From an uncultured Eubacteriales bacterium (lineage in GTDB: Bacteria; Bacillota; Clostridia; Christensenellales; Aristaeellaceae): DNA of 43,575 nucleotides. This document shows positions 3,215-37,996 of this stretch, in pieces. Made by a program: the position numbers and the translations under genes. Positions within the stretch are counted from its first letter, which is position 1. Every line of letters begins with the position of its first letter. The DNA lies in assembly GCA_902765305.1 (NCBI GenBank), contig CACWZI010000015.1:1-43575 (forward strand). Direction: 5' to 3'. The notes beneath the pieces are model-generated. The model searched no databases and was not told where the DNA came from. It was given only the letters and a program-made list of their open reading frames with translations.

Positions 3215-3502
3215 AGTGCGCGGGTGATTGATGAGGATTTGAGGGGTTAGGGGTTAGGTTTTAGGGGTTAGGGAAGGTAGAAATCCTTCGGATTTCTTTG
3301 ATTCATAGGATTGTGAAGCGCCAGAACTCCTGTAGTTTCAATAAAATCAAACAAATCCTGTAGGGATTTGCGACGCGAAGCTAGCCCTTTAGGGCACCAC
3401 CCCTAACCCCTAACCCCTAACCCCTAAAACCTAACCCTTAAAACCTAACCCCTAAAACCTAACCCCTGAATACTGCTTTGTCGCTCTGCGACAAAGCAGT
3501 AT
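3215..3502. repeat. repeat-packed intergenic mosaic
   Basis: No gene is seen here. The spacer carries heptamer arrays in opposite orientation: GGGGTTA-type units at 3243-3273 and ACCCCTA-type units at 3399-3467, so the two arms can pair. Between them lie two small hairpins (3279-3297 with loop TTC, and 3352-3370 with loop TGTAG) and one copy of the 24-bp CTAGTCCTTTAGGG family at 3371-3394 with one mismatch. The block ends in the palindromic hairpin at 3468-3504. Confidence 0.85.
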
Positions 3503-4351: not shown

Positions 4352-4777
4352 TCTGTTAAATCGTGAAAACTTTTTGCTGACATTGTCAGTCTATGCGGGT
4401 TTGAGTATATGGGTGCGGGAAATACTGAATTGTCGCGCTGTTGGCGAAAATGCAGAGGGTAGTACAAAGGGAACAGGGAACAGTCAACAGGGAACAGGAA
4501 AAGCCGCGCACGGGACGTTATGACCATGACAGAGGAAATGTTCCCGCGAAGAGAATGAAGTGCGAAAACCCTGTAGCGGCGGCGCCCTAAAGGACTTGCT
4601 TCGCTGCGCATGCGCCGCGATACGAAGTTAGTCCTTTAGGGCCGCTACATTTCGCACAACCCCGGAATGTATACGGCACCCGCCATTCCTGTTCCCTGTT
4701 CCCTGTTCCCTGTTCCCTCGTCTCCCCGCCAAATCAGAATTTGTCAGGATTCGCGAACAGGCTTAATACGGGCGGAC
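4352..4777. repeat. composite intergenic repeat region
   Basis: No gene is seen. The stretch holds a degraded copy of the ATACTGATTTGTCGC family (4422-4436), AGGGAAC-type heptamers at 4462-4500, a nearly 100-bp hairpin at 4560-4657, four GTTCCCT units in a row at 4691-4718 pointing the other way, and half of the AAATCAGAATTTG family at 4731-4745. The 18 bases at 4462-4479 are an exact reverse complement of 53-70 at the left edge of the window. Confidence 0.8.
4560..4657. repeat. large palindromic element built on the CCTTTAGGG repeat
   Basis: Three nested arms pair: GTGCGAAA (4560-4567) with 4650-4657, TGTAGCGGC (4572-4580) with 4641-4649, and CCCTAAAGGACT (4585-4596) with 4630-4641. The inner arms belong to the same family as the 36332-36487 tandem array. 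Function unknown; it could fold as a cruciform or, if transcribed, as RNA. Confidence 0.75.
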
Positions 4778-32654: not shown

Positions 32655-33704
32655 TCACATGATGGTTTGAGCGATTTGATCCAGCCGGCTTCTGATCTGC
32701 CCGAAGGGCTGCCTCAGGTCCAGCGTGCCCACCGAGATCCGGCTGCCGTGCATGGAATAGGTGTTGTCCGGCTGCGTCGCCTCGTCCGTCCGGGCGTAGA
32801 GCAGCAGGCCGGAGACGCTGTGCGGCGCATCGCCGAAGGCGTATTCCCGGTTCTTCACATAGGTGAAGATTTGGTACAGGTTGCCCGAATGGACGGTGTA
32901 TGAGTCATATTGGCTCTGCAGGGTATGGCTGTAGTACTTCGCGTCGATGATCAGCACGCGGCTGCCCTTTTGCAGCGTGATGTCCGTCTGCATGACGGGC
33001 AGCAGCGCCCCTGCGCCGTCATCCAGCGCCCAGGGGATCTGTGACGCCCGGGGCGCAAGCGCCGGGTGATGCTGCACATAGTATTCCAGCAGGAACTTCT
33101 CGTACAGCCTGCACATGCGCTGGTCGTCCAGGAAGGCGGCCAGCCGCCGCTCGCCCGCCTCCGTCGTCAGCAGCATGCCCTCGATGGTCAGCTGGCAGAT
33201 GCCCAGCAGTATGCGATAGCTCTGGTTGCTGCGCTGGAAGCGGATGTCGCCCCAGCGGATCGACAGGGGATCGACGGCATCCACGCCGGAGAAGAACAGC
33301 AGCTTCTGGCGCAGGGCGTCCTTGAGCGGGGGCTTGACCTGGCCGTGGCGGATCAGCAGCTGGGCCGTGGTCTTCAATATTTGGTTGAACAGGTTGTTCT
33401 CCGACAGCTCGTCGTACTCGCAGGCCAGCGCCTGCCGCCGTGCCAGCCGGTTGCGGATGGTCCCGGGCATGGCGATCCTGCCGCGCAGCGTCGCGAGGTC
33501 CTCCCGGCGGTTCAGGTAGCTCCTGTACAGGCCCTGCTTCAGCTGCATGCCGATGCCCTTCGAGAGGATCGCAGCAAACAGGCTGTGGATGTTCTCGAAG
33601 GCCTCCGGGGCCATGTCCTCGTCGTCGGACCGGTTGAGCGCCTGGAAGGCGTAGGACAGCATATAGTAGATATTGTGTATCAGGATATGCCTGTTCTGTA
33701 TCAT
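32655..33704 (-). CDS. mcrC: McrC, nuclease subunit of type IV McrBC restriction system
   Basis: A 349-residue McrC. It opens with HILIHNIYYMLSYAFQ, typical of the family, and carries the PD-(D/E)xK nuclease core: Asp241 in MQTDITL and Asp254-Ala-Lys256 in LIIDAKYY. McrC binds the McrB GTPase ring and cuts DNA that carries modified cytosine. The ATG overlaps the mcrB stop (ATGA), so the subunits are translationally coupled. Confidence 0.92.
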   Translation of the reverse strand: MIQNRHILIHNIYYMLSYAFQALNRSDDEDMAPEAFENIHSLFAAILSKGIGMQLKQGLYRSYLNRREDLATLRGRIAMPGTIRNRLARRQALACEYDELSENNLFNQILKTTAQLLIRHGQVKPPLKDALRQKLLFFSGVDAVDPLSIRWGDIRFQRSNQSYRILLGICQLTIEGMLLTTEAGERRLAAFLDDQRMCRLYEKFLLEYYVQHHPALAPRASQIPWALDDGAGALLPVMQTDITLQKGSRVLIIDAKYYSHTLQSQYDSYTVHSGNLYQIFTYVKNREYAFGDAPHSVSGLLLYARTDEATQPDNTYSMHGSRISVGTLDLRQPFGQIRSRLDQIAQTIM

Positions 33705-36106
33705 TGGAACACCCCGTGCAGGCTGTTTTCCCAGCGCTGCAGCTTCGCCTCGTCGTCAAACCAGTATTCGCCGAGCATCTGCAGTATGTCGTAATCCACC
33801 ACGTCCCGCATCCATTCCACCGTGCAATCCTCCGGGCCCTTCAGGCCGCAGAAGTAGCTGTGGCCGATGCAAAAGCCCCTGCCCAGCGCCTTGTCCTGGG
33901 CGATCTCCCGGTTCAGTTCCCGTATGCGCTCGATCAGGGCGTCGAAGGTCTCGTTCTCCAGCCCCGCCTGATACCGCCTGAAGCCCTCGGAATCGAAGCC
34001 GGGCTCCATGTCGAAGAAGCTGAACCGGCGGCGCAGGGCGTAATCGATCAGCGCCAGGCTGCGGTCCGCGGTGTTCATCATGCCGATGATGTACAGGTTG
34101 CCCGGCACCGAGAAGGGCACGTCGCTGTAGGCCAGTTTGACCTTCGCGTCCCGGTAATCCGGCTCGATCAGCATCAGCAGCTCGCCGAAGATCCTGCTCA
34201 GGTTGCCGCGGTTGATCTCGTCGATGATGAAGAAGTGGGGAAGCTCCGGTCGGTTGTTGGCCCTCTGGCAGAAGCGGTGGAACACGCCGGTCTTCAGCGC
34301 GAAGCCGCTGTCCTCCGGCTTGTAGCCCATCACGAAATCCTCATAGGAATAGTTCTGGTGGAACTGCACGAACTCGATGCGGCTGTCGTCCTGCTCGCCC
34401 ATGATCGACCAGGCCAGCCGCCGGGCCGCGAAGGTCTTGCCCACGCCGGGCGCGCCCTGCAATATGATGTTCTTTTTGCGCAGCAGCACCGCCTTCAGGC
34501 GGTCGTAGCGGGCTTCGCTGAGGTACATGTCGCGCAGGAAGGCGGCCTTGTCGTAGATATCCGCCGCCTTTGCCACGGCGGCGGGGTTTTCCTCCCGCAC
34601 CAGGTCCATGATGAAGTCGAACTCGCCGCGGGTCAGCTTGAACAGGCTGCCCTGGGCGTTGGTAAAGTATTCCATGTGCTCCAGCTCGGGGCACGACTTC
34701 AGGGTCGCCAGGTCGATGGGCTCGGCGAAGCCCTCGAGCTTCTCAAAGGTCAGCTTTTCGCCGTCCTGTTCGGCTACCACCCTCGCCAGCCCGACCACCT
34801 GCTTGACGGGGTGGGACTCGTAGCAGACGATCATGTCGCCAACCCGGGCGTCCAGGAAATTCTGGAAGATGCGTCGCTTGTTGCCGTTTTCGTTGTACAG
34901 CGTATAATCCTGCGCCTCTCCCACGGCAATGCTGGAGAAGCTCCAGATTCGGGGATTGGCGTTCAGCCACCAATACTGTCTGTCCGTCTCTTCCTCGTCC
35001 GCCGTCACATAGAGTGGAATGTCCGACAGGTCTACCCGGTCCAGCGCCTGCGCCAGCTCGTCCCGCAGCTTCCAGATGTATACGCCGTGATCGATGCTCT
35101 TGTCGGCTTTCCTTCCAAGGTAGAGGATCGGCCACCATCGGGAATTATCAGAGTCCCTCGGCATCACGGGGCAGCCCGTCTTTTCGGCGATACGCTTGGC
35201 CAGGAAAGAGGAGCCGCTGTTGTAAAAGTTCTTGCTCTCGCCATACTTGACGGCAAGCTGTGTGCAGGTGGCCGCGCCGCCGTAATCCTTGAACCGCTTC
35301 ATGATGGCCAGGCTGTCGGGCGTGAAGACCGTTTCATCCTTCAGCAGCGTCACCCATTGATCGACGGATAATTCAGGGGAATAACCCGAGGGGAACCACT
35401 CTTCCTCGACAGCGCTTGCACTCTCCTCAGTGTAAAAACGGCTGATATAGAAGCCGAAGGTCTGCGTCATGGTTTTGAATTTGGGGTCCGAATAGCATTC
35501 TGCCGTCAAATGCGAATTGAACATCATATCCAATTCATAATCCTGCTTCAGCGCTTCGCATATCTCATCATAGAAGGCCATAAAGGAACGAATGTTACCG
35601 GCATAATCTCCCTGTTTAAATGCGTATGAACCGCCCAGAGCTTTGTTTGTCGCCTTGATTTCACTGAGCTTGAAGATATAATACCTGTCAGGATAGCGCA
35701 GCCAGAGGTAGGTCATGATGGCATTTTCATTCTGGTAGTGCTGTCCCGCGTCAGGGCGCAACCGATCCCTCAGTGCTGCCGCTTTTTGCTTGAATGCGTC
35801 GATGCGCGACCAGAGATCGGAGGTCTCGTCAAACAGCGCAATAAACATTGCGCGTACCGCTTCCGGCGCTTCCTGAGCAAATTTCTCAATCATCCTGCGG
35901 GGGTAGTTGTTCATCGATGCCAACAGATTGTAGGTCTTCTTCAGCGAGGTGTTCAGCATTGCCGCGAAGTCCGGCGCGTTGACGTCCCAGTGGTCCTGGA
36001 ACCACTGGATGGCCTCCCACTTGTACTTCTCGTTCGGCCACTGCCGTCCGACAAAATCCTGCTTGAAGGCCGCCAGCGCGCCTTCGTATTTCTTCTGATC
36101 GAACAT
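33701..36106 (-). CDS. mcrB: McrB, EVE-domain AAA+ GTPase of McrBC system
   Basis: An 801-residue protein in three parts. Residues 1-370 are a helical region of unknown fold. Residues about 378-510 look like an EVE/PUA-like domain (YWWLNANPRIWSFSS, then VGDMIVCYESHPVKQVVGLARV), which would read modified bases in place of the usual McrB DNA-binding domain. Residues 530-801 are the AAA+ GTPase: Walker A GAPGVGKTF from 551, Walker B FIIDEINRG (Asp629-Glu630) and the McrB signature MNTADRS (about 677). ATG 36106 is chosen since the in-frame GTG at 36133 would lie upstream of the predicted transcript start. Confidence 0.9.
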   Translation of the reverse strand: MFDQKKYEGALAAFKQDFVGRQWPNEKYKWEAIQWFQDHWDVNAPDFAAMLNTSLKKTYNLLASMNNYPRRMIEKFAQEAPEAVRAMFIALFDETSDLWSRIDAFKQKAAALRDRLRPDAGQHYQNENAIMTYLWLRYPDRYYIFKLSEIKATNKALGGSYAFKQGDYAGNIRSFMAFYDEICEALKQDYELDMMFNSHLTAECYSDPKFKTMTQTFGFYISRFYTEESASAVEEEWFPSGYSPELSVDQWVTLLKDETVFTPDSLAIMKRFKDYGGAATCTQLAVKYGESKNFYNSGSSFLAKRIAEKTGCPVMPRDSDNSRWWPILYLGRKADKSIDHGVYIWKLRDELAQALDRVDLSDIPLYVTADEEETDRQYWWLNANPRIWSFSSIAVGEAQDYTLYNENGNKRRIFQNFLDARVGDMIVCYESHPVKQVVGLARVVAEQDGEKLTFEKLEGFAEPIDLATLKSCPELEHMEYFTNAQGSLFKLTRGEFDFIMDLVREENPAAVAKAADIYDKAAFLRDMYLSEARYDRLKAVLLRKKNIILQGAPGVGKTFAARRLAWSIMGEQDDSRIEFVQFHQNYSYEDFVMGYKPEDSGFALKTGVFHRFCQRANNRPELPHFFIIDEINRGNLSRIFGELLMLIEPDYRDAKVKLAYSDVPFSVPGNLYIIGMMNTADRSLALIDYALRRRFSFFDMEPGFDSEGFRRYQAGLENETFDALIERIRELNREIAQDKALGRGFCIGHSYFCGLKGPEDCTVEWMRDVVDYDILQMLGEYWFDDEAKLQRWENSLHGVFQ

Positions 36107-36133
36107 AGCTGTAATCCCATCCTCTCCACCCAC

Positions 36134-36139
36134 ATTATA
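36134..36139 (-). promoter_or_regulatory. extended -10 promoter of the mcrBC-dinB unit
   Basis: On the minus strand TGA-TATAAT forms an extended -10; TGGACG, 17 bp upstream, is a 4/6 -35. Confidence 0.55.
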
Positions 36140-36215
36140 TCAGGAATTGGATTCTCCGTCCACAACAAAACGCCGTTCGCCCCTCATTTCGAGCCCTTCA
36201 GCGCTTCCAGCCGAA

Positions 36216-36239
36216 CCCTAAAGGACTAGCTTTGCGTCG
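36216..36239 (-). repeat. single 24-bp repeat copy capping the regulator remnant
   Basis: A minus-strand copy (two or fewer mismatches) of the unit in the 36332-36487 array, in opposite orientation to it. It supplies the last residues and stop of the regulator remnant. Confidence 0.8.
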
Positions 36240-36588
36240 GTGCCATGTAGAGCATCGCGGCGTCCCGGAAGCGCCGGGGGTCCAGGCCGCAGCAGTCCCG
36301 TATGCGCTTGAGCCGGTATTGCAGCGTGTTGCGACGCGAAGCTAGTCCTTTAGGGCGACGCGAAGCTAGTCCTTTAGGGCGACGCGAAGCTAGTCCTTTA
36401 GGGCGACGCGAAGCTAGTCCTTTAGGGCGTCCTTTAGGGCGACGCGAAGCTAGTCCATTAGGGCGACGCGAAGCTAGTCCTTTAGGGACGTGCAGAAAGC
36501 ACCGGCCCACCGTCTCCTTGAGGGATATTTCACACGCGAAGTAGACGCCCGGCAGCGCCCGGTCCGCCGGGCTGAGCTGGCCGAGGCA
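36226..36588 (-). pseudogene. PucR/CdaR-family regulator C-terminal remnant split by a repeat array
   Basis: The open frame reads LSPADRALPGVYFACEIS, SLKETVGRCFLHV, then about 52 residues of repeat-encoded GLASRRPK, then RNTLQYRLKRIRDCCGLDP and RRFRDAAMLYMAP. The two ends match the PucR/CdaR C-terminal helix-turn-helix (family pattern ...ETA..L..HRNTL.YRL.RI..L.GLD); the insertion falls in the middle of the HRNTL motif. The N-terminal bulk of the gene is missing: a TAG at 36589-36591 precedes and a MITE follows. Not functional as a DNA-binding protein in this form. Confidence 0.75.
36332..36487. repeat. tandem array of a 24-bp unit, six copies plus a 12-bp partial
   Basis: Full copies start at 36332, 36356, 36380, 36404, 36440 and 36464; a 12-bp half copy is at 36428-36439. 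The unit begins CGACGCGAAGCTAGTC and ends CTTTAGGG; copy five has ATTAGGG. Units are 8 codons and the half is 4, so the array stays open in the host frame. Copies are contiguous, with no spacers. Confidence 0.95.
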
Positions 36589-36594
36589 CTATAG

Positions 36595-36749
36595 TTAAGG
36601 AAATACCGCGCAATTAAGGTGGTCAGCTGGCGAGTGAATTTTTCGACAGATGCAATTGCAGATTTCGAAGGTTTACTGGCGGTAAATCGAGACAGATGTC
36701 GGAAAAGGCACCGCCAGATGTGCCGCCGTATTGTGCGGTATTTCCTTAA
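36595..36749. mobile_element. 155-bp MITE-like element with 20-bp terminal inverted repeats
   Basis: The left end TTAAGGAAATACCGCGCAAT (36595-36614) and the right end (36730-36749) are inverted copies with one mismatch. The inside is non-coding and has no transposase; GACAGATG appears twice. The ends TTAA suggest TTAA or TA target choice. It lies at the truncated edge of the regulator remnant. Confidence 0.75.
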
Positions 36750-36803
36750 TATTTTAGCTTGATTATTGTTATATATAATATATCATTTTTGCGTGGATTT
36801 TGC

Positions 36804-36809
36804 TACAAT
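36804..36809 (+). promoter_or_regulatory. extended -10 of the glycerate kinase gene
   Basis: TGC-TACAAT, 35 bases before the ATG, in an AT-rich tract (36750-36800). No strong -35. Confidence 0.45.
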
Positions 36810-36844
36810 TATTTCAGCCAATAAACAACGGGGAGGTCAGACAC

Positions 36845-37996
36845 ATGAAATTTCTGTTTGCTTCGGATTCCTTCAAGGGCACGCTGACCAGCGCGCAGAC
36901 CGTGGAGCTGCTGGCGAAGGCGGCGACGGACGTGTTCGGTGAGATCGAGTACAGCGGCGTGCCGGTGGCCGACGGCGGCGAGGGCACCACGGACGCGGTG
37001 GTGGCGGCGGAGAACGGCCAGTGGATCGAGACCGAGGTCTGCGGCCCGATGATGGAGAAGGTCACGGCCCGCTACGGCAGGCTGGACGATCGCCGGGCGG
37101 TGATCGAGATGGCGGCGGCCTCGGGGCTGCCCCTGGTGCCGCTGGATCGACGCAACCCGCTGAAGGCTACCAGCTACGGCACAGGGGAGCTGATCCGCCA
37201 CGCGCTGGGCCAGGGCTTCACGGACATCTCCATCGCCATCGGCGGCAGCGCCACCAACGACGGCGGCATGGGCTGCGTGCGGGCGCTGGGCGGACGCTTC
37301 CTGGACGCCGAGGGCCGCGAGCTGGAGGGCAGGGGAGAGGACCTGGAGAAGGTGTGCGCCATCGACGTCTCCACGCTGGACCACCGCCTGGCCAACGCAA
37401 AGATCACGGTGATGTGCGACGTGACCAATCCCCTGTGCGGGGAAAACGGCGCGACCTGGACCTTCGGGGCCCAGAAGGGCGCGACGCCTGAGATGCAGGC
37501 GCGGCTGGAGGCCGGCATGGTGAACTACCGCGACGTGATCTGCCGCCAGTTCGGCATCGACCCCGACGCCATCAAGGGCGCCGGCGCGGCGGGCGGCCTG
37601 GGCGCGGCGCTGGTGTTCCTGGGCGGCGAGATGAAGTCCGGCATCGACACCGTGCTCGACCTGATCGGCTTCGACGCCCGCCTGGAGGGCGCGGACCTGG
37701 TGGTCACCGGCGAGGGCCGCACCGACTGGCAGAGCTGCTTCGGCAAGGTGATGCAGGGCGTGGGCGAGCGCGCCGCGAAGAAGGACGTGATCGCCGTGGG
37801 CCTCAGCGGCTCCCTGGGCAGGAACGCCTGGCAGATCTTCGACCACGGCATCGCCTCCCTGATGACCACCGTGGACGCGCCCATGCCCCTGGAGGAGGCC
37901 CTGGGCCGGGCGGAAGAGCTGTACTACCTGGGCGCGGTGCGCATGTTCCGCTTCATCAAGGCGGGCATGGACCTGAAGAAGAGGGAGGATGCATAA
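36845..37996 (+). CDS. glxK: glycerate kinase (GlxK/GarK family)
   Basis: A 383-residue kinase phosphorylating D-glycerate with ATP, in glycerate, glucarate or glyoxylate breakdown. Family blocks are complete: FLFASDSFKGTLTSAQ at the start, GVPVADGGEGTTDA, ASGLPLVP, IAIGGSATNDGGMGCVRALGGRF, CDVTNPLCGENGA, GAGAAGGLGAALVFLGGE and VVTGEGRTDWQS. GGGAGG nine bases before the ATG sets the start. Stands alone between a promoter and a strong terminator. With KDG kinase nearby, sugar-acid catabolism is the likely context. Confidence 0.94.
   Translation: MKFLFASDSFKGTLTSAQTVELLAKAATDVFGEIEYSGVPVADGGEGTTDAVVAAENGQWIETEVCGPMMEKVTARYGRLDDRRAVIEMAAASGLPLVPLDRRNPLKATSYGTGELIRHALGQGFTDISIAIGGSATNDGGMGCVRALGGRFLDAEGRELEGRGEDLEKVCAIDVSTLDHRLANAKITVMCDVTNPLCGENGATWTFGAQKGATPEMQARLEAGMVNYRDVICRQFGIDPDAIKGAGAAGGLGAALVFLGGEMKSGIDTVLDLIGFDARLEGADLVVTGEGRTDWQSCFGKVMQGVGERAAKKDVIAVGLSGSLGRNAWQIFDHGIASLMTTVDAPMPLEEALGRAEELYYLGAVRMFRFIKAGMDLKKREDA

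Follow-up and report, generated by a model that had tools for sequence, protein, structure and literature searches.

The gene of a PucR/CdaR-type regulator beside the glycerate kinase gene garK carries a tandem array of a 24-bp unit exactly between two codons of its helix-turn-helix, and the question raised by this locus is where such an array came from. In the window (the whole stretch of 43,575 nucleotides analysed here), the array measures 156 bp (24+24+12+24+24+24+24), a length that is uncertain in a draft genome of 177 contigs. Alignment of the flanks, as advised by the preliminary description of this DNA, places the array on the minus strand from 36486 to 36331, with edges that can be shifted by one base, and gives the unit consensus CCTAAAGGACTAGCTTCGCGTCGC; the 12-bp partial copy is missing what lies between GGAC and the final GC. 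The preliminary description had reported a 24-bp array in frame inside the regulator's helix-turn-helix, and this array is real and far above chance: its period was detected by TRF, the 22-bp core has 10 matches in the window at ≤3 mismatches against 0.00 expected (the maximum over 100 shuffles being 0), and the ORF at 36226-36510 is open throughout. The full unit of eight codons and the partial one of four preserve the frame as PKGLASRR repeats, as had been stated. The placement of the array within an "HRNTL" helix, in turn, has to be corrected, since in five relatives LHV or LHI runs straight into NTLQYRL or NTVQYRL, and the R of the window is the last codon of the array, CGC. The features of the window are listed in Table 1.

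Table 1. Features of the window that bear on the 24-bp unit and on the regulator remnant.
Feature	Position	Strand	Remarks
Single unit beside ACCCCTA heptamer repeats	3370..3393	-	Pattern match
Two diverged units (3 mismatches each), opposite orientations, a few bases apart	4586..4641	both	Pattern match
Second single unit, opposite orientation	36216..36239	+	In-frame TAG; remnant ends at PTQS
Downstream part of remnant, NTLQYRLKRIRDCCGLDPRRFRDAAMLYMA	36240..36330	-	Pfam HTH_30
Unit array	36331..36486	-	Six full 24-bp copies (one A-to-T) and one 12-bp partial copy, in frame
Upstream part of regulator remnant, CLGQLSPADRALPGVYFACEISLKETVGRCFLHV	36487..36588	-	Matches intact regulators of five relatives
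MITE-like element, 155 bp, terminal inverted repeats TTAAGGAAATACCGC	36595..36749	n/a	Replaces N-terminal part of regulator
Stretch before and at garK start	36764..36860	n/a	74-82% identity in five relatives
Glycerate kinase gene (garK)	36845..37996	+	Divergent neighbour of the regulator in five of five relatives

The ORF was searched against the 28 genomes of the genus, and matches were found in nine of them; in the own genome (G000; the other G numbers denote the genus, family and order genomes compared) and in G025 these were mostly to the unit part. The helix-turn-helix part was found at 71-81% identity in G007, G009, G008 and G018, where the open frames span 374 to 391 residues, as well as in G002, whose open frame extends past the regulator gene. 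In all five relatives the start of the glycerate kinase gene lies divergently beside the regulator, with 89-94% identity over the first 131-132 residues. The search for an uninterrupted regulator suggested by the preliminary description has yielded five. The C-terminal flank of the array matches Pfam HTH_30 (E 3.7e-9), and this match and the five homologues establish the PucR/CdaR homology of the flanks on which that description depended. The window reads LHV, array, NTLQYRL, with not one base lost in comparison with the uninterrupted relatives; once the array is removed, the flanks rejoin to a normal PucR/CdaR C-terminus, as had been proposed.

The regulator gene itself is a dead remnant, because the MITE replaces about 290 N-terminal codons and the second unit introduces a stop. 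The match to the intact regulators starts only at 36588, at the MITE edge, and the conserved stretch before garK is found beyond the MITE. About 290 of some 370 codons are thus missing, and a full-length protein with sensor and helix-turn-helix is absent, the window copy being a C-terminal remnant only; 36226-36588, which had been taken as a whole gene, cannot be read as one. The second unit, which the preliminary description did not contain, falls inside the codon after ...LYMA. The remnant therefore carries a stop, and the in-frame state of its array says little about selection here; with its N-terminal codons lost and its frame stopped, the gene does not serve as evidence for a frame kept by selection. 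The 155-bp MITE is present in the genome in at least 30 full or partial copies (at least 65 matching pieces). No known RNA family was found in 36000-36900 at E 0.1. On the other side of the remnant, at 33701-36133, lies a large minus-strand gene with AAA_5 and EVE domains, which we take to be of the kind seen in McrB-like restriction systems.

The unit is dispersed over the genome that carries the array. The 22-bp core occurs at 21 exact places, and 156 places were found at ≤3 mismatches to 23 bp (control, 0). The catalogue used below was made from 60 stretches around listed places and from the window, and holds 81 sites with 127 copies at ≤5 mismatches, a partial sample of the places. In this genome many more unit copies occupy a single point within small intergenic repeats that adjoin ACCCCTA-type heptamers, and a sub-variant, CGACACGAAGTTAG, is found mostly within REP-like elements. 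In the window, heptamer arrays of the AGGGGTT / ACCCCTA type (3242-3467) adjoin the single unit at 3370-3393, and a similar layout can be observed at other catalogue sites. Unit insertions are clustered in neighbouring genes at G000:C22:82245-90390 and C102:13581-17080, and the histidine-kinase region of C22, which has stop-making unit copies, looks decayed. In G025 some units (L046, L051, L154 and other loci) form pairs, spaced 91 bp, within a longer repeat, and units near contig ends are frequent.

Sites that are filled in one copy and empty in another were compared at several loci. The guaA gene has matches in 28 of the 28 genus genomes; compared with each of the 11 close matches (≥93%, 10 genomes), the own gene is 24 nt longer. 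In the alignments of 10 of these 11, the gap lies exactly at the site in eight, one base earlier in L280, and is scattered in L285; 12 of the 22 aligned subjects were aligned on one side only and are uninformative on the insert, and L303 was not included. A GH2-like gene of 971 residues, whose Pfam match is just under the curated cut-off, carries ten units at four sites (4+4+1+1), none of which is filled in the orthologues of G025 and G019 (the G021 row, in the wrong frame, is excluded from the comparison). The same extra 24 bp is carried by two of 15 aligned copies of the MITE and is lacking in the other 13, two of which (L324 and L334) have a deletion spanning the site. Likewise, the REP-like repeats with GTAG/CTAC ends beside the Y1 gene on contig C53, named by eye against the description in PMC3733652, include five exact empty copies and two filled ones, with a filler of 24 bp in both.

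At guaA and at the regulator the difference is a clean 24 bp with no target duplication, and the unit has no terminal inverted repeats. At the MITE site, CGAC is found on both sides of the unit, and a 4-bp duplication is therefore indistinguishable there from the unit's own end. Mobility is read here from the comparison of empty and filled sequences, no insertion event having been seen; in terms of that comparison, the unit is a clean 24-bp insertion where empty sites are known. That the repeat can enter coding sequence, as the preliminary description held for the regulator, is better seen in guaA and in the GH2-like gene.

The consensus has one stop-free frame per strand, and the unit, if independently mobile, could thus spread through intact, even essential genes as an eight-residue insert. 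A coding filter applied to the joined flanks keeps 33 of the 81 catalogue sites, of which 23 are open and 10 contain a stop; the two sites of the window (one open, one with a stop) are not among these. A strict set was defined by a third-position G+C of ≥0.70 in both 150-nt flanks, a limit chosen after seeing the table, and comprises 16 sites in 11 genes. Random phase would leave 7.7 of the 16 open, whereas 15 are (P 5e-5), and the consensus-open phase is that of 11 (P 0.004 at one third). Since some of the genes hold more than one site, these P values serve as guides. The four open sites outside the consensus-open phase owe their open state to changes in the unit that remove the stop, and the only strict site with a stop lies in a histidine-kinase region. 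No bias was observed at the 17 weaker sites (8 open, 9 with a stop), many of which are in intergenic repeats.

Pfam assigned a family at E 0.001 to all of the 10 unit-crossing ORFs analysed, for L257 and L268 only below the curated cut-off, and to five of six further ones, L212 being under the cut-off. The families include GMP synthase, FGE-sulfatase-like, GH2, GH3, alpha-galactosidase, DUF2201 and acyl-ACP thioesterase. At the loci sampled from other hosts, none of 27 cyanobacterial units is spanned by an ORF of ≥150 aa; ORFs of this length span three of 21 selenomonad units (in one array) and 10 of 69 others, and some of these ORFs are probably spurious.

The distribution of the unit is patchy. 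At ≤1 mismatch to a degenerate pattern it was found in six of 60 genomes, with 138 copies in the own genome, 162 in G025 and one or two in G005, G008, G019 and G022, and none was found at this threshold in the 22 other genus genomes and the 32 of the family and order. Among 391 genomes sampled from the class, the own genome gave the only match, the 390 others being without the unit. A scan of a species-genome collection gave at least 109 matching stretches. Among the matches listed, the hosts are Lachnospiraceae, other Clostridia, the Selenomonadaceae Anaerovibrio and Selenomonas, one Akkermansia MAG, and the cyanobacteria Xenococcus, Hyella, Pleurocapsa and Myxosarcina, which we assign, in part presumptively, to the order Pleurocapsales. 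The 24-mer is identical, base for base, in bacteria as distant as cyanobacteria. With a looser pattern (≤2 mismatches), 20 of 20 genomes chosen from the matches listed were positive, with three control matches in all. The copies numbered 86 in Hyella, 47 in Xenococcus, 43 in Hyellaceae, 38 in Myxosarcina, 34 in LEGE 10410, 32 in Pleurocapsa CCALA 161, 17 in Anaerovibrio RUG13183, and 1 to 15 in the others. Four of the 20 genomes, the Akkermansia MAG included, have a single copy, which may be mis-binned DNA. A sub-variant with A-T for G-C at positions 5 and 11 is present in Clostridia and cyanobacteria alike. In one of these stretches, L098, the unit lies at 1703-1726 within a CATTCTGAGCG...AGCGAAGAATC stretch (reading HSER-SEES) that we take to be another widespread bacterial dispersed repeat.

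Five contigs of IMG/VR (L270-L274) hold the degenerate 24-mer, one of them in two tandem copies, and phage records gave no match to the unit. Two plasmid places were found in Chondrocystis sp. NIES-4102, the one examined lying between listed genes; ten matches in Rhizobium plasmids, at 82.5%, look like chance. It is conceivable, if rather doubtful, that an independently mobile 24-bp element crosses phyla, the same unit and its sub-variants multiplying in gut Clostridia, Negativicutes and pleurocapsalean cyanobacteria, being spread by transfer and moved by an enzyme within genomes.

Genes for Y1 enzymes were considered as candidate mobilisers. There are three in the own genome, two in G025, and others in 14 of the 26 other genus genomes, each of which has at most two unit copies; 34 of the 45 Y1 places were taken into the comparison. 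One of them, L346 (G000:C53:22100-23500), holds a 147-aa Y1/RAYT-like gene in the middle of many successive REP-like repeats with GTAG/CTAC ends; the 24-bp unit is present in two of these repeats. In the 33 other Y1 stretches fetched (1.0-1.6 kb each), no unit was found at ≤8 mismatches to 26 bp. The Y1 genes L345 (G000:C20) and L348 (G025:C148) are mutually closest among the places compared, with 79% identity over 161 aa (the next best for L345 is 54%), and the G025 copy appears frameshifted. This gene, common to both unit-rich genomes, was rejected as the mobiliser, its flanks being a GGGACGGTTCTCTTGTCC-type repeat with no unit. A reverse transcriptase as the key enzyme was likewise set aside: two RVT_1 matches were obtained in G000, and none in G025, which has 162 unit copies in an assembly 92% complete. 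The Y1 and RVT_1 searches tied no mobilising enzyme to the unit.

A stable structure of the unit was also discarded, because its folding is no better than that of shuffled sequences. No stem-loop with a GTAG/CGTC tag is predicted in the 24-mer. The highest mutual information is that of positions 5 and 11, which are G-C in 35 and A-T in nine of 49 distinct variants, and this covarying pair may be a single inherited change. The flanks were also compared with swapped flanks for complementarity: the mean stem is 4.0 against 2.76 ± 0.18 at outside sites (49 of 100 sites after deduplication), and 3.18 against 2.85 ± 0.21 in the own genome (33 of 73 sites after deduplication). Targeting of hairpin loops, marked at the former and not at the latter, was not retained.

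The most probable explanation of the locus, in our view, is that a mobile 24-bp element landed in the helix-turn-helix of the garK-linked CdaR-like regulator, that the array then grew, and that the gene became the dead remnant described above. The element would move as a unit and insert without loss of bases or clear target duplication; the array would have grown, probably by slippage or else by unequal exchange, and one copy would have lost 12 bp. A second unit, oppositely oriented, would have inserted close to the 3' end, and the MITE would have taken the place of the N-terminal codons. The preliminary description's "repeat expanding inside a gene" would in that case stand for the second step only, the first being the arrival of a genome-wide element. 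The array itself, tandem and made of near-identical copies with one partial, would fit a local minisatellite grown by slippage from a short stretch of the regulator's own; such an origin is very improbable, and was discarded, given that nothing like the unit is present at the site in the five relatives and that the 24-mer stands as a single copy in unrelated genes and repeats of the genome and in other phyla. It is harder still to credit that the array serves a function in the regulator, such as that of a copy-number switch. It does sit at the start of the NTLQYRL helix with the frame kept, but in a remnant without its N-terminal part and stopped by the second unit, and no other place in G000 matches the helix-turn-helix part except unit arrays. 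Repeats do break assemblies such as this draft, yet an adapter or chimera is just as hard to believe in, for the unit is found in assemblies of different projects (e.g. Anaerovibrio lipolyticus DSM 3074, Hyella patelloides LEGE 07179 and Selenomonas sp. AE3005), and sub-variants and stop-removing variants exist.

How the element would move is a separate matter. Single-strand chemistry of Y1/HUH enzymes is established for IS200/IS605 and has been proposed for REPs, and the clean insert without clear duplication, together with the hosting of the unit in REP-like repeats, suggests this chemistry. Our tentative best guess is therefore that a RAYT-like Y1/HUH transposase might act in trans and move the unit in the form of single-stranded DNA, the unit partly riding in the REP-like elements that such an enzyme moves. 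A route through an RNA copy and reverse transcription has been proposed for some cyanobacterial small dispersed repeats; a tiny insert without clear target duplication and the RVT_1 matches of G000 would agree with it, but we find it unlikely in view of G025, rich in copies and without such a match. The unit could, finally, be a mere passenger of REP-like elements and MITEs with no mobility of its own, as the REP-like setting of the CGACACGAAGTTAG sub-variant and the complementary flanks of the outside sites would suggest. This is quite unlikely, because in guaA, the regulator and the GH2-like gene nothing but the unit has been added, the guaA insert being exactly 24 bp without REP or MITE sequence, and because the flanks in the own genome show little complementarity.

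If units this small move by themselves, they would be near the lower size limit of mobile DNA, and would add in-frame peptides to apparently intact enzymes, here GMP synthase and the GH2-like gene with its ten copies at four sites. How small dispersed repeats move is an old question, and it becomes directly testable with clean pairs of empty and filled sites, a patchy spread within one genus and hosts among which there are named strains (Anaerovibrio, Selenomonas, pleurocapsalean cyanobacteria).

None of four 14-base pieces taken from the unit occurs in the open-licence papers searched. PMC3733652 and PMC3116915 describe GTAG- and CGTC-tagged REP elements, and REPINs with RAYT transposases, and PMC3733652 also mentions REPs within ORFs and Rickettsia palindromic elements as in-frame inserts. 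Like the tagged REPs, the unit is short and dispersed, has some copies in ORFs, shares its genome with Y1/RAYT-like genes, and lies within REP-like repeats whose first or last bases are GTAG/CTAC; unlike them, it has no long stem with a GTAG/CGTC tag and folds no better than shuffles. With the Rickettsia palindromic elements it has in common that a short repeat stands in frame in unrelated genes, but those elements are palindromic and about 100-150 bp long, whereas the unit has 24 bp and no terminal inverted repeats. It resembles a MITE in being non-coding, dispersed and without a transposase of its own, and differs in lacking terminal inverted repeats, in being far shorter and in showing no clear target duplication.

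The small dispersed repeats (SDR) of cyanobacteria, which Elhai et al. are said to have described in 2008, are reportedly about 20-27 bp long, are said to be found in minitransposons, in heptamer arrays and in one another, to have in three families a predicted structure with compensatory changes, and to be confined to a cyanobacterial subgroup. The 24-bp unit, dispersed over 156 genome places, likewise lies inside other repeats and a MITE, beside heptamers and in tandem. It differs in being often in genes and in frame, and in its abundance in Bacillota as well as cyanobacteria, with one occurrence in an Akkermansia MAG, the latter being a difference of host range and not of mode of action. The unit behaves like an SDR, to which we liken it by mode of action and not by the sequence of any named family.
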